Source: a virus
IMG/VR virus record: IMGVR_UViG_3300013233_000184
Location: 1 to 36,665 of that record
Length of the DNA: 36,665 nt
Reading direction: 5' to 3' (one strand)
Below, piece after piece: positions 1,117 to 33,891 of this stretch. The translations under genes and the position numbers were made by a program. The notes beneath the pieces are model-generated. The model saw nothing but the letters and a program-made list of their open reading frames with translations. It had not been told where the DNA came from and did no database searches. The number at the start of each line of letters is the position of its first letter. Positions within the stretch are counted from its first letter, which is position 1.

Positions 1117-2664
1117 TTAGGTTTTAGAGAATGTTTTAATGTATGTTTTATTACCACAATCATATATCTTTCTATAATTGTTGTTGAACATATTCATTGT
1201 TTCTGTTAATGACGAGTCATAATGTTCTAATTTATCTTTCAATTTGTGCTTTTGGAATTGTTCTCTTGAATATAAGATGTTTTCGTTTACTTTGAAATAA
1301 AAATAATTAAGATTGGAGTTGGCAACAAAGTCGAATCCTAATTGAGTGTATACATTACCCATACTCCATCTTCTATTAGCGTAACTGATGATTGACGTTG
1401 GACTATATGTTCGTTCGAAATACTTCAACAATTTTCCTGCTCCACCAACTACATTCATGTGGATCCTTGAACACAACCTAATTAATTCATATTGAACTGA
1501 TTTGTTGTATCTTGATTTACTGAAGGTCATTACTTGAACTAAATCGTCACCATAGAATAAACCCAATCGTATTGATGCGTTACATCTGCCTTGTAAGTGA
1601 TTGTTTTCAAGGAATTCGTTACATGTTGAATTGTCGATTGTTCCTACTGTACACTTCCTAGCAAAAATGCGGTCATTTCGCTTTAATTTATTGTCTATGA
1701 CTGATTTCCATATCGATTGTTTGATCGGATTCAACCACTCGTTTTCGAATATATGGAATAACTGAATATTATTACTCTCACAAAGTTCTGTTTTGATTAC
1801 GTGTTTATTTTTGACATCACGTTCATCACAGTAATTGTTGAACATGGATGATTTATGTTTACCGATACTATGATACATAATCCCATCATATTCTATACCA
1901 AAATTGAATGATCTACACATGATATCAATTTCTTTGGATAATGTCTTGTCGTTTTCATTGGCCGTAGCGAATTGAGTGACATAATCGTATATCACTGTTT
2001 GCGTTTTATGTTTGGATGGATGACATTTCTTGCAAATTGTCTTTACTAATGATGTACTCTTAGTCATAGTCCATTTATGATTGCATTTCACACACTCAAC
2101 AGGTAGATATTTATTGTTATAGTAGAATTCCTCATCGAATAACAATATTAAGTCACTAAATCTTGATAAATTGTCGAATGCTGTCAATCGTATGACGTTG
2201 TTTGAGTGTAGTTGTTTACGTTCTTCCACAGATAATGATTCATTGAATCGTTTAATAGAATCACTTATTTTCTTGTTCTTTGATTGTTTTTGTTCTTCAG
2301 ATAGTGTTTCGTGGTGGAGTTTCATCGCTTTTGAAAGATTATCAATGAATACAGAATTACTGGGTTTATGTTTGTTGTTACATGAAACAGAACAAAACTT
2401 GGGAATCTTTAGTTTCTTGAATGGTATGGATGTATCACAATGTTGACACCTTGGATATTCAGTTATGTCATTATTAATAACAAATAATCTCAGAGATATT
2501 GTACAATTTAGGTTGAGTTCATCCAACCATGTCGTTTCATGGATAATTTGAGTGTGTTCAGTTGATGATTTAAATGATGATTTCTTTATCTCAGAACGAT
2601 TGATCTTGGTATCTTTGATCAACTTGGAGTCTATGTATTCTTTGATGTGAGATGAGTAAACCAC
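1117..2664 (-). CDS. Homing endonuclease, zinc fingers plus Vsr-like nuclease domain
   Basis: 515 aa, GTG start placed by AAGGGG six bases upstream. The N-terminal module (about 1-100) is homologous to that of the neighbouring gene at 2763 and carries a C73-C76-C91-C95 zinc-binding pattern. A second Cys4 ribbon lies at C191, C194, C211 and C214. Residues about 250-320 contain FGIEYDG (E258, D260), H265 and LFHIFENEW (H304, E307), which fits the Vsr-like (EDxHD) nuclease core known from phage homing endonucleases. The C-terminal 180 residues (NHLQG, YELIRLCS, GGAGKLLKYF, SYANRR) form a conserved module often fused to such nucleases. It probably nicks or cuts DNA to spread its own gene. Expression is likely limited by the hairpin at 2668. 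Target site unknown. Confidence 0.75.
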   Translation of the reverse strand: MVYSSHIKEYIDSKLIKDTKINRSEIKKSSFKSSTEHTQIIHETTWLDELNLNCTISLRLFVINNDITEYPRCQHCDTSIPFKKLKIPKFCSVSCNNKHKPSNSVFIDNLSKAMKLHHETLSEEQKQSKNKKISDSIKRFNESLSVEERKQLHSNNVIRLTAFDNLSRFSDLILLFDEEFYYNNKYLPVECVKCNHKWTMTKSTSLVKTICKKCHPSKHKTQTVIYDYVTQFATANENDKTLSKEIDIMCRSFNFGIEYDGIMYHSIGKHKSSMFNNYCDERDVKNKHVIKTELCESNNIQLFHIFENEWLNPIKQSIWKSVIDNKLKRNDRIFARKCTVGTIDNSTCNEFLENNHLQGRCNASIRLGLFYGDDLVQVMTFSKSRYNKSVQYELIRLCSRIHMNVVGGAGKLLKYFERTYSPTSIISYANRRWSMGNVYTQLGFDFVANSNLNYFYFKVNENILYSREQFQKHKLKDKLEHYDSSLTETMNMFNNNYRKIYDCGNKTYIKTFSKT

Positions 2665-2667
2665 AAG

Positions 2668-2710
2668 ATGCCCCTTAATTAGTTTTCAGGGGGAACTAAT
2701 TAAAGGGCAT
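2668..2710 (-). promoter_or_regulatory. RNA hairpin hiding the ribosome binding site of the first endonuclease gene
   Basis: Arms 2668-2684 and 2694-2710 pair over 17 bp with one G-U pair and a 9-nt loop. The 3' arm of the minus-strand RNA holds AAGGGG, the ribosome binding site for the GTG at 2664. A long transcript should therefore be poorly translated. T4 homing endonuclease genes are restrained in a comparable way (established for I-TevI). Confidence 0.75.
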
Positions 2711-2759
2711 TTCAATTAATTCACCCCCGAAAAGAGTTAGTATTATTATACTATTCGAT
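2711..2759 (-). repeat. Shared endonuclease leader, copy next to the first gene
   Basis: Just upstream of the hairpin, the minus strand reads TTAATCGATCG, then ATAGTATAATAATAC, then CTAACTC...GGGGGTG. The same elements in the same order occur at 4346-4415 ahead of the second endonuclease gene. Here the terminator-like inverted repeat is degraded. TATAAT could be a -10 box, but I see no convincing -35 element. Confidence 0.6.
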
Positions 2760-2762
2760 CGA

Positions 2763-4298
2763 TTAATATACCTTTAATTCGAAGTTGCATCCACTATCTA
2801 AAACAGATTGGAATTTCATCTTGTTCATTTCTATATTACGACCCAATGTGTATTCAGACTTGACTTCATATATGGTGTTGGTCTCTGGTATGAATACATC
2901 AGGAAAATAACGCCTGGTTTTGCCGTCTAATTCGTACCAAAATTCTGGCATGTCCTTTCTGGATGTCTTTATTTTATCCTCAGAATAATGTTCTAATAGT
3001 TCGTCCAATAAAAAATTCTCGTATCCTTGAATTCTGATTATCTTACCAGATGGCAACTCATAATCCTTCCACTTATATCCGTTGGATGCTAAATTACTTT
3101 GCGAGTAAAAAGGAACACCATATCTTTTCATGCAAGTGGATTTTCTTTTATCAACGTTTGCATAAAAAGGAACACCGTATCTTCTCATGCAAGTGGATAT
3201 TCTTTTATCAACGTTTGCATAAAAAGGAACACCGTATCTTCTCATGCAAGTGGATATTCTTTTATCAACGTTCGCAAATGAAGGAACACCATATTTTCTC
3301 ATATTAGTGGATTTTCTTTTATCAACGTTTGGGTAAAAGGGAACCCCATATTTTTCGATACTTGTGAACTGTCTTTTTGACTTAATTTCAGTCCACTTCT
3401 TATGATTCGAACAAATATCTTTCCATGTTTCACTGATGGATTTTGGGTTATTGTATTTTTCGTCACCATACCGTCGTAATTTAGTTACTTTCATTTTAGA
3501 TCTAACATTGGGGTCTTTGAATTGATGATCAACTCCGAACTTCTCAATACAATGTTTGACCATTTTAGCTTTTACTTCAGGATTCTTATGAGGATGTGAA
3601 TAACCTGTTTTTGTTAAATAAGTTTCTAATCTTTTTGGTGCTGTATAACTACTCTGACAACCAACTGAACAACATTCATTGTAGTGATTCTGATTCCAAT
3701 TAACATCGTTTGAACAGTTGGGATTCTTACATTTTGGGATTATATCAATGTTATTATGTAGACAAAACATTCTTTCTAAAAACGAGTTGAACTCCATTCC
3801 AACCAATTCGTTTGAATAATGCATGATGGAATGATAAAAACCGTTGTAAACGGATTCTCTTTCAGAGTTACCTTGTCCACTTTTATTGAGTTTCGATTCA
3901 ATATATGTCGTTGTTTCATCGAGTGAGAATAACGTTGTCGATTCTTTCAATTTGTCGTATTTAACGGATTCGTTGGATTGTCTTAATTTTAACGACGATC
4001 TACATGAACAGCGTTTTGAACAAAATCTACTGAACTTATTCCACTTCTTGTATCTAACATTATCACCACAACGCTCACATTTAGGGAAAGTTGTTATATT
4101 ATGATGAACCATCATTACTCTTAATGCTGGATCACAATCAGAATTAATGTCGTTGAGCCATTCAGTTACATGAAGGATTTGTTGGAATTCAGGGGATTCT
4201 TTGAACCAATCCCTACGAAGTACTGCAGCGTTAGGATTACCTAACTTATTGATGAGGTTATCAGATATGTAACCTCGAAGTTCTTGTGTATAATTCAT
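2763..4298 (-). CDS. Homing-endonuclease-like protein, tandem DNA-binding repeats plus PD-(D/E)XK domain
   Basis: 511 aa, ATG start with AAGGGG eight bases upstream. Residues 1-100 share a domain with the neighbouring endonuclease, including C74-C77-C93-C97. A second Cys cluster (PKCKNPNC...CCSVGC) follows. The middle has a run of 19-residue repeats around (R/K)YGVPFYANVDKR, at least five copies plus weaker ones (EKFGVDHQF, RRYGDEKY). Such repeats occur in phage endonucleases and probably read DNA (inference). The C-terminus shows RYFPDVFIPETNTIYEVKS with D467, E478 and K480, a PD-(D/E)XK nuclease core. It lies directly downstream of the major capsid gene, a common kind of site for such elements. 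It has its own leader hairpin at 4304. Confidence 0.7.
   Translation of the reverse strand: MNYTQELRGYISDNLINKLGNPNAAVLRRDWFKESPEFQQILHVTEWLNDINSDCDPALRVMMVHHNITTFPKCERCGDNVRYKKWNKFSRFCSKRCSCRSSLKLRQSNESVKYDKLKESTTLFSLDETTTYIESKLNKSGQGNSERESVYNGFYHSIMHYSNELVGMEFNSFLERMFCLHNNIDIIPKCKNPNCSNDVNWNQNHYNECCSVGCQSSYTAPKRLETYLTKTGYSHPHKNPEVKAKMVKHCIEKFGVDHQFKDPNVRSKMKVTKLRRYGDEKYNNPKSISETWKDICSNHKKWTEIKSKRQFTSIEKYGVPFYPNVDKRKSTNMRKYGVPSFANVDKRISTCMRRYGVPFYANVDKRISTCMRRYGVPFYANVDKRKSTCMKRYGVPFYSQSNLASNGYKWKDYELPSGKIIRIQGYENFLLDELLEHYSEDKIKTSRKDMPEFWYELDGKTRRYFPDVFIPETNTIYEVKSEYTLGRNIEMNKMKFQSVLDSGCNFELKVY
3112..3396 (-). repeat. 57-bp coding tandem repeat, 5 copies
   Basis: Units start with GGAACACC or GGAACCCC at 3112, 3169, 3226, 3283 and 3340. 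The three from 3112 to 3282 are nearly identical; the last two have diverged. Each encodes 19 residues of the YGVPFY repeat inside the endonuclease-like gene. Near identity at the DNA level points to recent amplification. Confidence 0.9.
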
Positions 4299-6675: not shown

Positions 6676-6683
6676 TATTTATA
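6676..6683 (-). promoter_or_regulatory. T4-type late promoter for scaffold and capsid genes
   Basis: TATAAATA on the minus strand, 36 bp upstream of the scaffold start codon. It overlaps the stop codon of the protease gene (6679-6681), so scaffold and capsid can be made in greater amounts than the protease, as expected from their copy numbers. Confidence 0.75.
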
Positions 6684-7336: not shown

Positions 7337-7522
7337 TTATGCTCCCTCAACAGAATTAGAAATATCTTTAAATGATTGTTTCATCTGACTTGTGTTGTCC
7401 AATGTATTCACGTAGTCTCTGATGGTTGGATGTTCAGATAGTTTTTGTCCTAATAAACTCTTAACTGATGTGGAAAATTCAGTAAAATGTTTACCGGTTG
7501 CTTGTTTCATAATGTGTTCCAA
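7337..7522 (-). CDS. Small prohead core protein (positional match to gp67/gp68)
   Basis: 61 aa with a TTG start, chosen because AAGGAG lies seven bases upstream. The ATG at 7510 is 19 bases from that site and would give 57 aa. The product is helical (FSTSVKSLLGQKLSEHP) with no motif I recognise. In T4 the genes 67 and 68 for small prohead core proteins sit just before 21, so a core role is plausible from position alone. Only a few bases separate it from the genes on both sides. Confidence 0.6.
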   Translation of the reverse strand: MEHIMKQATGKHFTEFSTSVKSLLGQKLSEHPTIRDYVNTLDNTSQMKQSFKDISNSVEGA

Positions 7523-8095: not shown

Positions 8096-8677
8096 TTATA
8101 GTGCGATCGGATTCAACGTTGGTTGACCGGCCGCACCAGGTGTATTGAATTCTCCACCGCCCACTACCCAATCAGAGAAACTAAAAGTTACTTCAAATTC
8201 TTGTAGTGAGTCGACTGATTCAGCATCAACAGCTAATTCAGATACTTCTTGAACGAATACATTATGGAATGTATATTTAGCTGTTGGCATACCAGCAGAA
8301 TCCAATTGTTCAACTGATAATTCACCCATCACTGATGTTGGATCACCAGAATGTTGATTGTTTTGGAAATGGTCAGCCGCCATAGCCCAAGCGATCATAT
8401 CACGTCTTAGTCCATGATCTTCAGTATTGTAGAATGTCAGTGACCACGAATTAGTGTATGTTGTGTCGCCTGGCAATACCAACTTTCTGCCTTGATTGAA
8501 TACTTCGATTTGACCAATCGACATAGACGGAAATGCTGACGCTTTACATAACGCTTCAGCAGTCTGAAGATTAGATCCTGTTGTAATTGCCGCTGGAACC
8601 GCAAAGTTTACACGGTATTTACTTACCCGTGCTCCTGCTCCCAACGCATTTTTTAATTCAGCTATCTTATTAGCCAT
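8096..8677 (-). CDS. 19: Tail tube protein (gp19 family)
   Basis: 193 aa, close to T4 gp19 (163 aa). It has the family features: an N-terminal helix (IAELKNALGAGA), then SKYRVNFAVP, CKASAFPSMSIG, GRKLVLPGDTTYTNSWSLTFYNTEDHGLRRDMIAW, and the late TAKYTFHNVFVQEVSELAVD followed by EFEVTFSFSDWVV. The compact size and best fit to the canonical pattern make this the likely main tube subunit among the paralogues here. AGGAGA lies before the ATG. It is third in a minus-strand set that starts at the divergent late promoter at 10226. Confidence 0.85.
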   Translation of the reverse strand: MANKIAELKNALGAGARVSKYRVNFAVPAAITTGSNLQTAEALCKASAFPSMSIGQIEVFNQGRKLVLPGDTTYTNSWSLTFYNTEDHGLRRDMIAWAMAADHFQNNQHSGDPTSVMGELSVEQLDSAGMPTAKYTFHNVFVQEVSELAVDAESVDSLQEFEVTFSFSDWVVGGGEFNTPGAAGQPTLNPIAL

Positions 8678-8689
8678 TGTAATGTCTCC

Positions 8690-9454
8690 TTATTTTACTA
8701 GTGTTTCGATTCCTACGATAATATCTTGTCCTGTTTGTCCTATCAACGAATTAACGAGTTGTCTTCCCATACTTATACCTTCTAGTGGTAAAAACTCACT
8801 ATAAGTGAAAGTAATGTCGTAAGATGTTAGTGAATCGTTCTCAGCATCGTCATACGACACAGTTCCTATTTGAGTGGGGAATGCGTTTTGTAGTCTATAT
8901 CCGTATACCTTGTGTTCAGTACCGGATAATTGCCATATGTTTATATCTGTTTGATACTTCGCAACAGGAACTCTACCGCCAGCATCCATCACACCAAGAA
9001 AAAAGTTACCAACAGCATTATACATACTTTGTCTGCTTTTTGTAATATTCTTGAGTTTATTCGCTGCACTCACGCCAGATTTAATATTTGACAACATCGA
9101 AGATATACCAGTTTCGTATGACCCACCGCTAAATAACCCCATGTTCTTGGGTTTAGAGTCATCCACTAATCGCAACCATTCATCCATTTTCCTTCGTATT
9201 GACATATTAGAATCATCAACAACAGATACAACAAAAGTTCCACCGTAATCAGTTTCACCTCTGACATTGTATGTCCTACCTTTATGTGCCATTGTAGTCG
9301 TTTTAATGGTTCGTTCAGGAAACCCAGCAGTTCTAGCTAACGCATTTATTTGAGCACCATCCAACCCAGGGATAGGCAATTCCAATAAATATTTATTTTT
9401 ACGAAGTCCTAATCCAGGACCTAATTGTTTCTTGAGGTCATTAATGGTATTCAT
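8690..9454 (-). CDS. Tail-tube-fold protein with internal insertion
   Basis: 254 aa. Beginning and end match the tube fold: KNKYLLELPIPGL, ARTAGFPERTI, GRTYNVRGETDYGGTFVVSVVDDSNMSIRRKMDEW, then YGYRLQNAFPTQIGTVSYDDAENDS and SYDITFTYSEF. Between them about 65 extra residues (NMGLFSGGSY to GVMDAGG) are inserted, rich in Ser, Lys and Asn. It could be a specialised ring at the tube end, like the tube-fold baseplate proteins gp54 or gp48 of T4 (inference). The ATG overlaps the TGA of the preceding gene (ATGA), so translation is probably coupled. Confidence 0.75.
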   Translation of the reverse strand: MNTINDLKKQLGPGLGLRKNKYLLELPIPGLDGAQINALARTAGFPERTIKTTTMAHKGRTYNVRGETDYGGTFVVSVVDDSNMSIRRKMDEWLRLVDDSKPKNMGLFSGGSYETGISSMLSNIKSGVSAANKLKNITKSRQSMYNAVGNFFLGVMDAGGRVPVAKYQTDINIWQLSGTEHKVYGYRLQNAFPTQIGTVSYDDAENDSLTSYDITFTYSEFLPLEGISMGRQLVNSLIGQTGQDIIVGIETLVK

Positions 9455-10212
9455 TTAAACGCTCCAGTTTCGCCATATCCACCGCCAGAAGTTTGATGAG
9501 TCGCTTTTGATGTTTGTGGTTTGGTGAAATTAAACGTAGGAGTGTATTGTTGTTTCGTTTGTCCGGTTAGTGTATTCAACGCATTACCGATTGCATCGGT
9601 AGCGTATTTATTCATCATTCCTAATGCGTTATCAACAAAGTTACCATCTGGTGAAGCCTTGACTTCTAATGTGTAGTGACTATAAGCAAACGAAACAGCG
9701 AACTCACTTATTGCTCCTGTGTTATTGGCGTCCGTTGCTACACTAGACACGGATATAGGAAACGCATTGTGAATAGTGTATTTAGCTGTAGCTCTTGTAT
9801 CGTTGAAGTCTAATTGAGTTATGATCATATCTTTGACGTAACTTTTTTGTAGTTTCGCTGTTTCTATGTCTTTGTTCGATGTAGTATCGAAATAATTGTT
9901 CGTACCATCTAACGACTCAATCCAATTTTCGAAGGTGTTCTTTAGATAATGATCTTCAGTTAAGTAGAATGTACAATCCCAAACTTGTGTATACTTCGTT
10001 TGTCCTCTGATGGGGATAATTCTACCTCTATATTTGAAGTCGATCTTACTGTGTGTTTTGCCTGGAAATGATGAAGTTTTGCATGTCGCTGATACTGCGG
10101 CTGTGTCTAATCCTAACGATGAATCAGAAAAATGGATTACCGCTTCGTATTTAGTTGGCCTCGCTCCATCACCAATCGTTTGTTCTAAAATGTTTTGAAT
10201 TGCTGATGACAT
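9451..10212 (-). CDS. Tail-tube-fold protein with C-terminal extension
   Basis: 253 aa from the ATG at 10212, with AGGAG seven bases upstream. A GTG at 10218 is too close to that site. The tube-fold landmarks are present: CKTSSFPGKT, GRIIPIRGQTKYTQVWDCTFYLTEDHYLKNTFENW, ATAKYTIHNAFPISVSSVATD and EFAVSFAYSHY. About 75 C-terminal residues rich in Thr, Gln and Gly follow (QTSGGGYGETGAFK). It is the first gene of the minus-strand tail-tube/head operon, 17 bp from its late box. A tube terminus or baseplate-tube adaptor role is plausible. Confidence 0.75.
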   Translation of the reverse strand: MSSAIQNILEQTIGDGARPTKYEAVIHFSDSSLGLDTAAVSATCKTSSFPGKTHSKIDFKYRGRIIPIRGQTKYTQVWDCTFYLTEDHYLKNTFENWIESLDGTNNYFDTTSNKDIETAKLQKSYVKDMIITQLDFNDTRATAKYTIHNAFPISVSSVATDANNTGAISEFAVSFAYSHYTLEVKASPDGNFVDNALGMMNKYATDAIGNALNTLTGQTKQQYTPTFNFTKPQTSKATHQTSGGGYGETGAFK

Positions 10213-10225
10213 GAACACACTCCTA

Positions 10226-10245
10226 ACGTTATTTATAAATAACGT
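10226..10245. promoter_or_regulatory. Palindrome with two overlapping divergent late promoters
   Basis: ACGTTATTTATAAATAACGT is a perfect 20-bp palindrome. It contains TATAAATA on the plus strand (10234-10241, 22 bp before the ATG at 10264) and TATAAATA on the minus strand (10230-10237, 17 bp before the ATG at 10212); the two boxes share four bases. It is the only intergenic space between the leftward head/tube block and the rightward baseplate block. Confidence 0.85.
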
Positions 10246-10263
10246 GTGATAGGAGAAGATATA

Positions 10264-10794
10264 ATGAATTTTTCGGACGCAGTATCCAAAGCATACACAA
10301 CTAAATGGTCATATATAAACTCATTTGTTGTGGATTTTGTACCAGGTGGATCGGTTTTATTAAAGAACGCTAAATGGAACCCAGAAGAACTTCGTTCCAT
10401 GGGATTATTCGTCAAATCATTCACGACACCTCAGTATTCTACTTCTCCAATTGAATCATACGTTGCAGATCAATGGCAAATACAAAATGGTAGATATGAA
10501 CTATTTAAATATACAATTGGGTTCAAGGATCACGACGGTCATTATTTATATAGAAAGTTTTTACAATCTCTGACACTACACAAGAAAGCATATCTGGCTG
10601 AATGTCATTGGAATATAACGATATCAAAGGCTCCTGAATACGTTGGTGACCCACAAGTTAAAATTATTGAGTTCCCCATGTCTATGATTGAAAGTGTTAG
10701 TCAAATGCAGTTCAGTAATGAAACAGAAGGACAAATAGCCGAATTCAATGTGAGTTTTAAATGTACATCACCAATCATAAATGTGAATTACTAA
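10264..10794 (+). CDS. Tail-tube-fold or baseplate protein
   Basis: 176 aa from the ATG at 10264, with AGGAGA seven bases upstream; a GTG at 10246 precedes that site and can be set aside. The order of elements resembles the tube fold: INSFVVDFVPG, GLFVKSFTTPQYS, FKYTIGFKDHDGHYLYRKFLQ, and near the end IEFPMSMIESVSQMQFSNETEGQIAEFNVSFKC. It is the fourth such protein in a row, the only one facing the baseplate block, so it may be the tube-fold protein nearest the baseplate (gp54-like). No closer assignment is supported. Confidence 0.65.
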   Translation: MNFSDAVSKAYTTKWSYINSFVVDFVPGGSVLLKNAKWNPEELRSMGLFVKSFTTPQYSTSPIESYVADQWQIQNGRYELFKYTIGFKDHDGHYLYRKFLQSLTLHKKAYLAECHWNITISKAPEYVGDPQVKIIEFPMSMIESVSQMQFSNETEGQIAEFNVSFKCTSPIINVNY

Positions 10795-17962: not shown

Positions 17963-18006
17963 TATAAATAACAAATGTATATTCAGATGGAGACCGATTA
18001 TAAATA
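17963..18006 (+). promoter_or_regulatory. Two tandem late promoter boxes before the PAAR gene
   Basis: TATAAATA occurs twice in the 84-bp gap after the spike gene, at 17963-17970 and 17999-18006. The second is 20 bp before the PAAR start codon. These separate the tip and wedge genes (PAAR, gp25, gp6, gp7-like) from the hub operon and give them their own late transcription. Confidence 0.75.
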
Positions 18007-24784: not shown

Positions 24785-27121
24785 ATGAGATATAATAAAG
24801 TAGCATTGGAAGAATTATCAGAAGCAGTGTATCAAAAAGAAGATATTAACATCTCTGACGAATGCACAACTAAAGCGATCGATATCACTATCATTAAACG
24901 CGATGGAAGAAAACAACGATTCAACCCTGATAAAATGCGTAACGTATGTCTATGGGCTTGCGATGGATTGACTTGGATGTCTGATGAGTTGATTCGTGAT
25001 ACAGAAATCAAACTACATAAAGAAATCCATATTCGCGATATGTATAAACAATTGATCACCACAGCAGTTAATAAAATATCATTGTTGTATCCTGGTTGGG
25101 AAGATGTGTCAGCTAAACTTGAATTGATTTCAGTGTATAAAGAAACATACAATATTAGCAAATCCAATGAATATCCACCAATGTCTCAAGTGTTGAGTAA
25201 AGGTGTCGACCATAAAATATACGATAAAAATACCGTCGGTCAGTATTCTGATGAAGATTTGAGACAAATCGATACTATTATTGTTCCTGATCGTGATTTA
25301 TTGTTTAATTACAAGGGGTTAGTTACCTTTGTTAGTAAATATTGTTTAAATTACTCAAAAACAAAGAAACTTGAACTACCTCAACATGCATATATGCGTG
25401 TAGCAATGACGTTAATGATTAACGAGAAGAATAGAATTGAACAAATTCGAGATTTATACGACTCATTATCTAAACATATGTTCACTGAAGCGACCCCGAT
25501 TATGTTGAACTCCTTGACACCAGGTCAACAACTAAGTTCATGTGTGTTGAATACTGTGAATGATGACTCCCATAGTATATTGGATACTGGTAAAAACCTT
25601 GGAATCTACAGTAAATTTAAAGGTGGTACCGCCCTAGATGGTTCAGCTCTTAGAGGTAAAGGAGCATACATTAATGGTACACAAGGAATATCATCAGGCC
25701 CTGTACCATTCATCAAGTATTTTGAATCGATTATGAAGGCTTGGAATCAAGGTGGTAAACGACCTGGTGCGCTATGCGTGTACTTTTCGTGGTGGCATAC
25801 TGATGTGTTCGATATCCTGTCACTGAAATCTAATGGTGGAACGGATGAAAATCGAGCACGCGGTGTTCAGTATGGTTGTAAATTGAACCAATTGTTTATT
25901 GACGCTGTGTTGAATGATGAAGACGTCTATTTATTCGACCCAAAAGATGCTCCAGAATTACTCACAGTGTTTGGTGATGAATTCAATGAATTGTATCATA
26001 AACTTATTAATAAATCCAGTGTACGTAAACGTAAAGTGTCCGCTCGTGAACTAAACGAAAAGATTTTTAAAGAACGGTCAGAAACTGGCAATATCTATCT
26101 ATTTCACTCCGAAAACGTCAATAACGCAACACTACTTAATCGGTATGTGGGTAGTTCTAATTTGTGTACTGAAATTGTATTACCGTCTACAGCATCTATT
26201 CAATTATCTGATACACTACACGAAACAGAAAGTGGGGATAAAGTCATTACAAAAACATATGCGGCTGGTGAAATAGCACTGTGTAATCTGTCATCCATTA
26301 ACTTGGAACGATGGTTCTATTTAAATGACGACGAACGAACTAAATTGGTTAATATCGTAGTTAGGGCTCTTGACAATACAGTCGATATTGCTGAATATCC
26401 AGTTAAAGAAGGTAAGAATTCTAATACTATGTATAGATACCTCGGTATTGGCGTCCTTAATTATACAAACTATCTAGCACTCAATAAGATTGTAGTCGAT
26501 ACACCCGAAGCTATGGAAGAAACTGATTCACTTTTTGATGATTTATCGTATAAGATTATATCAGCTAGCGTTGATTTAGCTATTGAAAAAGGTAGATTCC
26601 CTAAATTCTACGAAACTGAGTGGGCTGATGGTGTTCTTCCTATATATAAAGCGAATAAAAAGGCTATTGAACTGACTAAATATCAACCAGATATGGATAA
26701 ATGGGATCAATTGAGTGACCGCGTTAAATTGTTCGGTATTAGAAACGCTCAACTTATGGCTATCGCCCCAACTGCGTGTCAAACTAAAGTCGGTGAAATT
26801 AAAACATCAACTGGCATTATGTCATTAGAACAAATTATGGATGAACAAAAAATTGACCATAATTTAATTGAAAATAACCAAATTAAACAATGGGTTAACT
26901 TCGACGCTCCGATCACTATTCCGACACGTCTTGGTGATCGTGAAGTATATCGAATATGGTATAATGGTAAGGTACCAACACGCAAAATCACAATGGAAGA
27001 CGGTAATGTTTATGAGTTTTCACTTAATCATAAGTTGTTGGTCACATTAGAAGGTGGATGTAAAACGTGGGTGAAGGTTGGAGATCTCTCCAATGGAATG
27101 GATATAGTGTGCTTGGATTGA
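24785..27121 (+). CDS. nrdA: Ribonucleotide reductase alpha subunit, N-terminal 664 residues fused to split-intein N-half
   Basis: 778 aa. Residues about 30-115 are an ATP-cone allosteric domain (TIIKRDGRKQRFNPDKM). The catalytic barrel has C253 (LSSCVL), N459-x-C461-x-E463 (SNLCTEI) and C500 (ALCNLSS), all active-site residues of class Ia enzymes. The enzyme part stops at MAIAPTA, in the phosphate-binding loop, and from C665 the sequence is intein (see 26777). The active-site Tyr pair and the redox Cys pair of the C-terminus are missing here and are supplied by the gene at 27610. The TGA at 27119 ends it. AAGGA lies before the ATG. Without trans-splicing this product should be inactive. Confidence 0.93.
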   Translation: MRYNKVALEELSEAVYQKEDINISDECTTKAIDITIIKRDGRKQRFNPDKMRNVCLWACDGLTWMSDELIRDTEIKLHKEIHIRDMYKQLITTAVNKISLLYPGWEDVSAKLELISVYKETYNISKSNEYPPMSQVLSKGVDHKIYDKNTVGQYSDEDLRQIDTIIVPDRDLLFNYKGLVTFVSKYCLNYSKTKKLELPQHAYMRVAMTLMINEKNRIEQIRDLYDSLSKHMFTEATPIMLNSLTPGQQLSSCVLNTVNDDSHSILDTGKNLGIYSKFKGGTALDGSALRGKGAYINGTQGISSGPVPFIKYFESIMKAWNQGGKRPGALCVYFSWWHTDVFDILSLKSNGGTDENRARGVQYGCKLNQLFIDAVLNDEDVYLFDPKDAPELLTVFGDEFNELYHKLINKSSVRKRKVSARELNEKIFKERSETGNIYLFHSENVNNATLLNRYVGSSNLCTEIVLPSTASIQLSDTLHETESGDKVITKTYAAGEIALCNLSSINLERWFYLNDDERTKLVNIVVRALDNTVDIAEYPVKEGKNSNTMYRYLGIGVLNYTNYLALNKIVVDTPEAMEETDSLFDDLSYKIISASVDLAIEKGRFPKFYETEWADGVLPIYKANKKAIELTKYQPDMDKWDQLSDRVKLFGIRNAQLMAIAPTACQTKVGEIKTSTGIMSLEQIMDEQKIDHNLIENNQIKQWVNFDAPITIPTRLGDREVYRIWYNGKVPTRKITMEDGNVYEFSLNHKLLVTLEGGCKTWVKVGDLSNGMDIVCLD
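26777..27118 (+). other. Split intein, N-terminal half (IntN, 114 aa)
   Basis: Starts with Cys665 of the fused protein, the expected first nucleophile. KVGEIKTSTGIMSLEQIM corresponds to block A; the block B region reads MEDGNVYEFSLNHKLLVT, with SLNH where most inteins have TxxH. GGCKTWVKVGDLSNGMDIVCLD fits the end of a splicing domain before the point where split inteins break. It is followed by a stop codon. Confidence 0.88.
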
Positions 27122-27606
27122 GTACACTAGAATCAGAGATTCTGACACTACAAACGTACTTGTCGTTTAGACAGTATGTGTTGAGTGAAGCTAAACAAGT
27201 TGGACACGTTTATCACTTCACTACATTGACGAATATCTTGAGGATAATGAGGTCAAAAAAAATCAGCAAAAATAACGAAGGGTACGTTTCAGTGACTAGA
27301 GATTTCCAACTTCCGAACGAAAAAGGATATTTCAACACTGGAGAATATGTAGTCAGAATTACTATTGATGGTGATAAGTTATCAAACAACGTTAGAATAA
27401 TGCCAATCGGAGATATAAATTTCGAAGACGAGCGAGAATGTGGCATTTTAAATGAGGTCAAGTCAAAATACTTCAAACAAATTGATTTCCTAACGACTGA
27501 TAATAGAGTGTTCCCTAAGGAATCCGTACGTGTCATTTATGATAAATGCAAAGATATGTTTGACGATGTTCGTTTAATTAAAAAATATCAACCAGTTAAA
27601 GGATAA
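27109..27606 (+). CDS. Gene lodged between the two split-intein halves; not a recognised endonuclease
   Basis: About 165 aa. Start uncertain: GTG at 27109 (GGA four to nine bases upstream) or TTG at 27118, which overlaps the previous TGA. Motifs: VYHFTTLTNILRIMRSKKI (35-52), YVSVTRD (59-65), a beta segment EYVVRITIDGDKL, then INFEDERECG (103-112) and KYFKQIDFL. The YHFT ... SxTR ... acidic order brings to mind ADP-ribosyltransferase-fold proteins (inference, weak). In published fractured phage and metagenomic genes the insert between intein halves is usually a homing endonuclease. I find no GIY-YIG, HNH, LAGLIDADG, Vsr-like or PD-(D/E)XK signature here. Its end is three bases before the next ATG. 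Confidence 0.7.
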   Translation: MLGLSTLESEILTLQTYLSFRQYVLSEAKQVGHVYHFTTLTNILRIMRSKKISKNNEGYVSVTRDFQLPNEKGYFNTGEYVVRITIDGDKLSNNVRIMPIGDINFEDERECGILNEVKSKYFKQIDFLTTDNRVFPKESVRVIYDKCKDMFDDVRLIKKYQPVKG

Positions 27607-27609
27607 AAT

Positions 27610-27711
27610 ATGAAAATCACCAACATCGAAGAATCGATGAGTCACACATGGGATATTGAAGTACCATCTACTCACGAATATCTACTATCTAATGGATGTG
27701 TGTCTCACAAT
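27610..27711 (+). other. Split intein, C-terminal half (IntC, 34 aa)
   Basis: MKITNIEESMSHTWDIEV is followed by THEYLLSNGCVSHN. The D-I-x-V...H-x-Y-L/F pattern and the final His-Asn before Thr are the blocks F and G of inteins. Length is typical of naturally split IntC pieces (about 30-40 aa). The ATG provides its own start, so the half is translated separately. Confidence 0.9.
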
Positions 27712-28062
27712 ACATCAGGAAAAGCGATTAATGCTATTGAGTCAACTGAACCGGTTCATGACTTCTTTTATAAGGAAGAAGGAACAATCACTGTACCAAC
27801 TGTTGTTCCAAACTTCAAGAAAAACAATAAATATTACAAACGAGCGTTCGATTGTAACCAAACTAACTTGTTGAAGAACGCAGCAATCAGACAGAAATGG
27901 ATTGACCAAGCTCAATCAGTTAATGTGTACATCGCTCGACCCGATTCGTTAGAATATATGACGAAACTCCATTACAAATTCTTCGATATGGGTGGTAAAA
28001 CACTATACTACCTCAAACAACAAAAAGGCGAATCTGGATACGTTTGTGAGTCTTGCACATGA
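27610..28062 (+). CDS. nrdA: Split-intein C-half fused to the C-terminal 116 residues of ribonucleotide reductase alpha
   Basis: 150 aa with its own AAAGGA ribosome binding site. Residues 1-34 are intein (see 27610-27711). From T35 the sequence is NrdA: TSGKAINAIESTEPV completes the phosphate-binding loop begun by MAIAPTA in the upstream gene; KTLYYLKQQ carries the adjacent Tyr133-Tyr134 pair of the radical path; and VCESCT at the end supplies the C146/C149 redox pair. Joined at A|T, the two parts give a 780-residue subunit, a normal class Ia length. Thr as the +1 residue is compatible with splicing. Confidence 0.92.
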   Translation: MKITNIEESMSHTWDIEVPSTHEYLLSNGCVSHNTSGKAINAIESTEPVHDFFYKEEGTITVPTVVPNFKKNNKYYKRAFDCNQTNLLKNAAIRQKWIDQAQSVNVYIARPDSLEYMTKLHYKFFDMGGKTLYYLKQQKGESGYVCESCT

Positions 28063-31051: not shown

Positions 31052-31543
31052 TTACACTTGAAGGGTTAGTGTGTTACTATTAGGAAATACTATGTTATAT
31101 GTGTCGTACTTTATTTCGATACTCAGGGTATTTTCAGTTTCTGACGATGTTGTATCTAAAGATATATCACCAATTGATTCGATTCTACAATTGTTGAATT
31201 CCAATTTAAACACTCTAAATCCCTTAACATTATTAACATCTATCCAAAAGTCAAATTCTTGAGTAGCGAACGTACCTGTCAACGGACTAACATTTTGAAA
31301 TATTTTAGTCATAAGTTCGTTGTACACAGCGAAGTTTTCGTCAATAAGTACTTCAATGCTCAGTGGGTTGAATGTTAAGTTGTCAGCGGTCACAAATAGA
31401 GGACTACCACCTTTTGCGTGTACTTCTGGATGACTCATTTGAATGCCAGGAATACTCAATGACGTTAGGTATAGTGATGTTAATCCTAATTTATCTGATC
31501 CTGCCATGAAATTAGTTTGAGCTGCTAGGTTATTATTATTCAT
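31052..31543 (-). CDS. Virion structural protein, tube-like fold family
   Basis: 163 aa. TSLYLTSLSIPGIQM, then ADNLTFNPLSIEVLIDENFAVYNELMTKIF, follows the pattern SxxxPGI ... GDxLxFxPLxVxxxVDExxxxYxxxxxW of a virion protein family common in T4-like and other phages, probably related to the tail-tube fold. GGGGA lies before the ATG, and a TATAAATA box stands 37 bp upstream. It is transcribed late, against the early gene at 30581 and away from the gp55-like gene. Its exact place in the particle is unknown. Confidence 0.6.
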   Translation of the reverse strand: MNNNNLAAQTNFMAGSDKLGLTSLYLTSLSIPGIQMSHPEVHAKGGSPLFVTADNLTFNPLSIEVLIDENFAVYNELMTKIFQNVSPLTGTFATQEFDFWIDVNNVKGFRVFKLEFNNCRIESIGDISLDTTSSETENTLSIEIKYDTYNIVFPNSNTLTLQV

Positions 31544-31580
31544 ATGTCCCCAAATATTAATGAAAATTGTTGTATCGTAT

Positions 31581-31588
31581 TATTTATA
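31581..31588 (-). promoter_or_regulatory. T4-type late promoter in the leader of the late sigma gene
   Basis: TATAAATA on the minus strand, 37 bp upstream of the start at 31543 and only 10 bp from the ATG of the gp55-like gene on the opposite strand. Late transcription from here would start beside the gene for the sigma factor that it needs. Confidence 0.7.
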
Positions 31589-31598
31589 TGGGGTATTT

Positions 31599-32414
31599 AT
31601 GATTAGACCAAAAAGACAGAAACACAACTACACTAGTGAATTGGAATTGAAGTCTATTCTGATACGTATTCAAAACATGAAGGACGAGTGTGGTGAATAC
31701 GACGATAATAAGAGGATCGGTAAGTATGTTAAATGGCATACTGATCTGAGCAATTGCAAGGACCATCAACCGGAACGTAGAAATACAATTAAACACAAGA
31801 TTCGTGATAAGGTTGTTGAATTATCTGAAAAAACTAAGTCTGATGATGTTGTGTATGAACGATTTGGTGAAATCATATTGTTGATGGTCAAAAACATTCT
31901 AAAATCACCAAAGTTTTCCAGATACACTTACTTTGATGACTTCTATTCTGACGCAGTATTCAAGATCATTAAGTACCTTCACAACTTCGATCACACGAAG
32001 ATTTCCGTGAGAACGAATCAACGAGTGAACGCATTCGCATATATTTCACAAATAATCTTTAATAGCGTACTATTTGTAATCATATCGAAAGGCAAAGATA
32101 GTAAGAAAATTGATGCATACCAAGTTGATATGCAGATCCAAAACGAATCCCAAGTGAATTCATTCGAACATCACAGAGACATCACAGATACATCTGTTGG
32201 TGGAGAATGTACAATCACAAAGATTCTGACTCTTGACGTTATTACTCACGACGACTTTTTGGAAACCGTATTCGATTGGATTGAATCGAATCCAGCGGAT
32301 AGTTACGTGGTGATAATTCCTGACGATTTTAAACCAACTGCTGACGAGCTCACTGAAGTGGTGGGTCATTCCAAATCAATTATTGTAGAAGGATCATCTT
32401 ATGAAATCAATTGA
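31599..32414 (+). CDS. 55: Late-transcription sigma factor (gp55 family)
   Basis: 271 aa from the ATG at 31599 (GGGG five bases upstream); an in-frame ATG at 31560 lacks such a site. Residues about 90-165 match T4 gp55: FSRYTYFDDFYSDAVFKIIKYLHNFDHTK and FAYISQIIFNSVLFVIISKGKDSKK, compared with FSGYT...[21 protein letters not shown] and [21 protein letters not shown] in T4. This region binds core polymerase and the late -10 box. It is longer than T4 gp55 (185 aa), with extra residues at both ends. It is expected to direct host RNA polymerase to the TATAAATA boxes in this genome. It overlaps the next gene by 14 bp. Confidence 0.82.
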   Translation: MIRPKRQKHNYTSELELKSILIRIQNMKDECGEYDDNKRIGKYVKWHTDLSNCKDHQPERRNTIKHKIRDKVVELSEKTKSDDVVYERFGEIILLMVKNILKSPKFSRYTYFDDFYSDAVFKIIKYLHNFDHTKISVRTNQRVNAFAYISQIIFNSVLFVIISKGKDSKKIDAYQVDMQIQNESQVNSFEHHRDITDTSVGGECTITKILTLDVITHDDFLETVFDWIESNPADSYVVIIPDDFKPTADELTEVVGHSKSIIVEGSSYEIN

Positions 32415-32640: not shown

Positions 32641-33891
32641 ATGTGGTCATTTCGGGACGAATTGTTCACGGAAGTAATTGACGGATTTGAGTCGTTTGTT
32701 TATATAATAGAACGACTGAATACCTTAGAATGTCCTGATTCTCCAGTGTATTACATCGGAAAGAAGAGTTTTTACTCCAAGAAGAAAGTGAGTGGTAAAC
32801 GGACAATCGAGGAATCCGATTGGTGGGACTATTATGGTTCATCTGAATGGTTACAACAAGACATCGAAAGATTCGGAAAGAAATCATTTAAACGAACGAT
32901 TCTTCATTTGTGTAGAACTAAAGGTGACGCTGGATATTTGGAATTAAAGGAACAAATAGAACGGAACGTCCTACATATTGATGACAATTATAAATTGTAT
33001 TACAATAAAAATGTGTTGGGCATATATAGAATGGAACCAGAAATGTACAAGTTTTCTGGATCTATTACGGATTATGTCAATCGAAGTGTTGTCGATAACA
33101 AGAACAATAAAGTGTGGGTGACTAACGGTGAGATTAATCGTTTGGTGACTAAATCAGTTGGAGATAAAGTCACTAATACCAAACAATGGGTATTTGGGTC
33201 CTGTGAAAAACACATCCAAGTTAATGATGGTTCGTGTAATTTAGTAGTACCGTATTCTCAATCGGACGAATATTTTATTGGGTGGAAGTTCAGTCATGTA
33301 GTTAAAGGAGACGACGTTAAATTCGTTTCTATTCAGGAATTATCATCATATTTGAGTAATGGTTGGGTAGAAGTTGATGATGTTATACATGATTCAGTAG
33401 CATCACTGAAAGAAATGACTCATATGACTAAGGAACACAATAGTAAGTGGATTCCTACTGACAAATTATTGTCGTATTTGTATGACGGATGGAGGATATC
33501 TGGCGTTTTTCCTCTTTATTTCGCTAATAACGGAGTAAATGTACAAACGTTTACATCCATCGTCGAGTTTGATGATTTCCTCAAGGATAACGTATCGTGG
33601 ACCAATGGCAGAATACACCAAAAATTCTCAGACTTAGATCTTATTGTTGTCAGGAATGTCATAAGTGGTGAAAAGGAATTAGTTACTCCTGATTCATTTA
33701 AAACCAACTCACAATTAGTTAAATTATCTACTCCATTGGTCAAAATAAAGAACAAAAATCGCATCATTTTTAGAGGATATTTGAGAAACTTCGTATTAAA
33801 TTCGGATTTCTCAGAAAGAAGTCTTCAAATAGCTCTCCGAACTGGAAATAAAGTAAGAAATACGGACATCACTATAATCAAGGAGCGTTGA
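32641..33891 (+). CDS. GIY-YIG homing endonuclease
   Basis: 416 aa. FVYII (19-23) and VYYIGKKSF (36-44) are the two strands of the GIY-YIG nuclease; YYGSSEWLQQDIERFGKKSFKRTILHLC and the acidic LELKEQIE (about 100-107, candidate catalytic Glu) follow as in phage Seg-type enzymes. The long C-terminal part has W-(V/T)-TNG-type modules (KVWVTNGEINRLV near 157, SWTNGRIHQKF near 320) typical of DNA-binding tails in these enzymes. The ATG directly follows the TAG of the gp33-like gene, so it sits in the late-transcription operon. Target site unknown. Confidence 0.7.
   Translation: MWSFRDELFTEVIDGFESFVYIIERLNTLECPDSPVYYIGKKSFYSKKKVSGKRTIEESDWWDYYGSSEWLQQDIERFGKKSFKRTILHLCRTKGDAGYLELKEQIERNVLHIDDNYKLYYNKNVLGIYRMEPEMYKFSGSITDYVNRSVVDNKNNKVWVTNGEINRLVTKSVGDKVTNTKQWVFGSCEKHIQVNDGSCNLVVPYSQSDEYFIGWKFSHVVKGDDVKFVSIQELSSYLSNGWVEVDDVIHDSVASLKEMTHMTKEHNSKWIPTDKLLSYLYDGWRISGVFPLYFANNGVNVQTFTSIVEFDDFLKDNVSWTNGRIHQKFSDLDLIVVRNVISGEKELVTPDSFKTNSQLVKLSTPLVKIKNKNRIIFRGYLRNFVLNSDFSERSLQIALRTGNKVRNTDITIIKER

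Follow-up and report, generated by a model that had tools for sequence, protein, structure and literature searches.

In phage T4, overlapping promoters are said to direct divergent transcription in the base plate cluster, reportedly described by Scarlato and others in Virology in 1989. An old T4 GenBank record (M77695) already annotates overlapping TATA boxes of genes 26 and 51, and the T4 genome holds a single copy of the overlapped box pair, TATTTATAAATA, at 116450-116461, within the 50-bp gap between these genes. RB69, JS98, and CC31 carry one TATTTATAAATA each, every one at 26|51. Late boxes also face each other in the T4 4|53 gap (7350-7372 of our locus L173), with TATAAATA on the plus strand at 7350-7357 and on the minus strand at 7365-7372, so that transcription from either promoter would run through the box of the other. 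The T4 late promoter box occupies positions -13 to -6 (PMC1524935), T4 late complexes are unwound from -12 to +2 (PMC7892883), and the DNA just downstream of the box is usually AT-rich, which is a preponderance and not an absolute rule (PMC2988020). In the bidirectional promoters of Escherichia coli, the -10 element is symmetric, and a single site thereby yields divergent starts that flank it (PMC12825309; Warman, Grainger and others).

The locus studied here lies in a 36,665-nt stretch of DNA from a T4-related virus (the window), and direct reading agreed exactly with what the original prediction had described: ACGTTATTTATAAATAACGT is a perfect 20-bp palindrome holding TATAAATA on both strands, the two copies having four bases (TATA) in common (Table 1). 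It is the longest perfect palindrome of the window, the runners-up measuring 14 bp. When the window was shuffled with dinucleotides preserved, a palindrome of at least 20 bp turned up somewhere in 12 of 200 shuffles (6%), and the length by itself is only mildly unusual. The overlapped box pair TATTTATAAATA at its core appeared in one of 200 such shuffles (0.5%; mean, 0.005 per window), and the window's copy is additionally placed inside a 51-bp divergent gap, bounded by the leftward ATG at 10212 and the rightward one at 10264. TATAAATA occurs at 15 sites in the window versus 4.4 expected (3.4 times enriched), a count that none of 100 shuffles attained; other boxes lie 21-57 nt before the starts of virion genes, gp22 and PAAR among them. 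Because the 5' half of the box is the self-complementary TATA, perfect outward-facing boxes can overlap only by 4 bases (TATA) or by 2 (TA). The 4-base overlap is no arbitrary coincidence; it follows from the box TATAAATA itself.

Table 1. Coordinates in the window of the palindrome, its flanking elements, and related late features
Feature	Position	Strand	Evidence
20-bp perfect palindrome; 12-bp core TATTTATAAATA at 10230-10241 = two overlapping late boxes	10226..10245	.	Direct reading, shuffles
Leftward late promoter box TATAAATA	10230..10237	-	Direct reading
Rightward late promoter box TATAAATA	10234..10241	+	Direct reading
TAGGAG ribosome-binding site, leftward gene	10220..10225	-	Direct reading
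TAGGAG ribosome-binding site, rightward gene	10250..10255	+	Direct reading
gp19-like tail-tube paralogue, leads leftward late block	9451..10212	-	phrog_45 E 1.3e-35
phrog_25014 protein, leads rightward baseplate block	10264..10794	+	phrog_25014 E 3.8e-17; relatives; baseplate hub genes next
Separate late box 37 nt upstream of gp22 scaffold gene	6676..6683	-	
Separate late box before PAAR gene of baseplate block	17999..18006	+	Another at 17963-17970
gp55-like late sigma factor, expected reader of the boxes	31560..32414	+	phrog_19643 E 8e-38; phrog_234 late sigma E 6.8e-16; T4 gp55 7d7c_F E 2.4e-4

Each box is a short way from the start codon of a virion gene, 18 nt on one side and 23 nt on the other. 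The original prediction had placed the site between head and baseplate blocks, and on the right this holds: the block comprises the phrog_25014 protein, baseplate hub genes, a tail-tube cap, a gp5-like hub lysozyme, PAAR, gp25, and gp6. On the left, the immediate neighbor is a tail-tube gene and not a head gene; the block contains three gp19-like tail-tube genes, with a gp2-like end protector, gp21 protease, gp22 scaffold, and gp23 capsid further on. The three tail-tube paralogues follow one another at 8096-10212, and Vibrio phage Va1 (L172) likewise has three gp19-like genes in a row, a triplication common to both. A tandem pair of large homing-endonuclease-like genes (1117-4298) adjoins the major capsid gene, and the two late boxes before the PAAR gene are in tandem, 36 bp apart (17963-18006).

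Outward-facing boxes with common bases between divergent genes are the layout of a bidirectional promoter, and we estimate a probability of roughly 0.87 that this site is a real bidirectional late promoter. A σ70 promoter or a terminator was rejected as an explanation, since neither a σ70-like promoter pair nor a terminator pattern was found at the palindrome; the absence of a -35 element is in keeping with a T4-type late promoter, which needs none. The window also carries a sigma factor gene of the gp55 family, as a T4-type late promoter would call for, and its likeness to gp55 shows clearly in a profile match (phrog_234) and only moderately in a single-sequence match (T4 gp55). A T4-type late RNA polymerase consisting of host core, this gp55-like sigma, and probably gp33 and a sliding clamp would read TATAAATA on either strand. 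By the T4 rule, leftward transcription would start at about 10224, 12 nt before ATG 10212, and serve the tail tube and head genes, and rightward transcription would start at about 10247, 17 nt before ATG 10264, and serve the baseplate genes, placing the predicted starts ~23 bp apart. The sequences 3' of the two boxes, ACGTG and ACGTT, are not AT-rich, unlike those of the usual T4 late promoter, which may make for weak transcription in one direction or in both.

A fourth gp19-like tail-tube gene (31052-31543, minus strand) diverges from the sigma gene, and its late box (31581-31588, minus strand) falls inside the beginning of the latter; late transcripts of the tube gene would accordingly originate within the sigma gene. 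The nrdA gene is split, with 24785-27121 matching the first part of the profile and 27610-28062 its end; the ORF between them (27067-27606), with no assigned family, is possibly an intron, an intein, or an inserted gene. The protein encoded at 32641-33891 is a SegE-like GIY-YIG endonuclease (Pfam PF19835, E 1.7e-27), for which the PHROGs label "NAD synthetase" is apparently misleading.

We scanned IMG/VR with the two flanking proteins and obtained 17 distinct contigs in which both orthologues are present and diverge as in the window, with 38-47% identity to the right-hand (partner) gene. All 17 have back-to-back late boxes, TATTTATA on the left-facing side and TATAAATA on the right-facing side, the sole deviation being one L142 box that reads AATAAATA. 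Since every relative has such a pair, divergent late promoters at this gap are very well supported by the comparison, and the earlier proposal of two divergent gp55-type promoters gains from it, as it does from the sigma gene and from the short distances between the boxes and the start codons. An AT-rich gap happening to hold the motif could appeal to the 6% of shuffled windows with 20-bp palindromes, but the rarity of the overlapped pair in those windows and the presence of both boxes in 17/17 relatives leave a practically negligible probability for chance, a reading that conservation already refutes.

Counting the window, 18 orthologous gaps could be compared for spacing. The box distance is -4 in five (the window, L140, L146, L160, and L161) and -2 in two (L141 and L153), and the boxes are 6-27 bp apart in the remaining 11, never exceeding 27 bp in the 17 orthologues. 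Overlap of any kind is thus present in 7/18, which falls short of the functional constraint looked for in a mutual-exclusion switch. On an 18-row tree of both proteins, many forks of which are weakly supported, the overlapped or separated state changed at least six times. Beyond these gaps, L164 has an overlapped pair but a different partner gene, L144 and L145 have separated box pairs with no partner gene identified, and the distant L166-L170, with a tandem layout, retain only the tube-gene-facing box. Judged from these sequences, the box pair is conserved and the spacing between the boxes is not. Whether relatives keep the palindrome has a divided answer: they keep the pair throughout and the exact overlap in a minority, and the ACGT arms are missing from every one of them.

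The arms bear on the suggestion that the palindrome is an operator through which a dimeric DNA-binding protein, for example a DsbA-like one, controls the late promoters. In T4, two late promoters are overlapped by AT-rich sites to which DsbA binds (PMC2988020), and perfect symmetry here runs 4 bp past each box, for which the chance probability of the flanks is ~0.005. We nevertheless rejected such an operator as very unlikely: the relatives lack the arms, and past the boxes the symmetry extends for 0, 0, 1, and 4 bp among orthologues and is near the chance level at other divergent sites. Folding of the palindrome in RNA, hiding ribosome sites or ending transcription, is more improbable still. 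The gap does fold well as RNA (z -3.5), with its AGGAG and CTCCT ends paired, but the same lack of arm conservation and of a terminator pattern stands against a hairpin, and neither late RNA would contain the palindrome because both predicted starts lie outside it, the palindrome being upstream of each; the hairpin was rejected despite the good fold.

The original prediction read the site as a switch open to one direction at a time that may balance the output of the two largest late blocks, although a 36.7-kb fragment is too short to rank such blocks by size. In its strong form, this reading holds that selection maintains the exact overlap as a dedicated device, making the two late directions compete and keeping the output of the blocks in balance. 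The geometry lends this some force. With TATA shared and the predicted starts so close, one complex at a time would bind and melt the site; if melting extends from -12 to +2 as in T4 (PMC7892883), opening one promoter would unwind the other's box, making simultaneous use of one copy very unlikely. On geometry, two polymerases are likely to be mutually exclusive here, although both directions could still fire by turns and on separate genome copies. The bidirectional promoters of E. coli show steric exclusion, and competition under strong activation (PMC12825309), and as the gap between boxes is at most 27 bp in all 17 orthologues, exclusion may hold for all of them. Mutual exclusion is not equivalent to a switch, however, because the E. 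coli promoters compete when one direction is strongly activated but not at basal strength (PMC12825309). The exact overlap is found in just 5/18 gaps and comes and goes on the tree, a pattern among relatives that argues against selection for the overlap as such. Neither late block would hang on the palindrome alone, since gp22 and PAAR have late boxes of their own; gp22 adjoins gp23, which, if read on from gp22, would share that independence. We consider a selected switch unlikely, and the claim that one balances the two blocks is not supported by these comparisons. Within the bidirectional late promoter that we favor, the overlap is one among several interchangeable spacings in this phage group, most likely reflecting economy of space and TATA symmetry rather than a dedicated switch.

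Activation of T4 late promoters depends on the orientation of the sliding clamp (PMC2988020), and direction at a symmetric site could for this reason be set by the strand that loaded the clamp. That the clamp chooses direction here seems to us rather unlikely. If it does, the palindromic promoter would reveal on which strand replication had loaded the clamp, and head/tail versus baseplate output would be tied to fork direction; the near-perfect symmetry of the window site makes it a clean template for asking if clamp orientation picks direction.

We also looked at how often such sites occur between divergent genes elsewhere. In IMG/VR, 25 of 121 places with TTATTTATAAATAA were within 60 bp of both divergent starts, compared with 2 of 123 for TTAAATTAATTTAA, a control palindrome of matched composition; the ORFs were called mechanically and the contigs are partly dependent, yet the contrast is still large. 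The other 63 A/T palindromes at the same loci were between close divergent starts in 2 of 158 cases. Searched as nucleotides against known phages, the gap gave no match. Among named phages, the exact TATTTATAAATA form is, by sequence, common yet far from universal: it was missing from KVP40, S-PM2, P-SSM2, Syn9, HTVC008M, CP220, S-H9-1, Mosig, RB49, 44RR2.8t, and RB43. Campylobacter phage NCTC12673 has one match, which coincides with the annotated start of a gene whose neighbor is divergent, and the overlap-by-2 form was found in one named phage, Pelagibacter phage Mosig, between divergent genes as well. The closest named relative by tube protein, Vibrio phage Va1, has two TATTTATAAATA sites (142130 and 143353), which as in the window are between divergent genes, there of the neck and head. 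The gene pairs are other than the window's, namely gp13-like | head completion and hypothetical | gp20, and the Va1 tube and phrog_25014 genes, divergent neighbors in the window, point in the same direction 9 kb apart with separate late-box-like sites. With two sites in Va1 and one each in T4, RB69, JS98, and CC31, the exact overlap is not the unusual feature it was first thought to be.

Compared with the E. coli bidirectional promoters, the site is alike in its predicted start spacing, ~23 bp being common there, and probably in that two polymerases exclude each other (PMC12825309). It differs in that those promoters use σ70 and -35 elements, whereas the window has a gp55-type box and no -35 element and would, by analogy to T4, be clamp-activated. 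Across the orthologues, box spacing drifts from full overlap to ~27 bp while both promoters persist, and the gap thus offers a ready-made set of spacings in which to test when exclusion between polymerases is important. The likeness to T4 26|51 lies in the exact TATTTATAAATA, the boxes sharing TATA, and the short gap between divergent baseplate or late genes. The window's pair is instead tail tube | phrog_25014, in a distant phage group, and its symmetry runs 4 bp further on each side. The overlapping divergent late promoter is accordingly a design already present in T4, and the feature, well supported, is an ordinary one; what the comparison adds is that this design, known from a single T4 position, is found again between other genes in distant T4-related phages.
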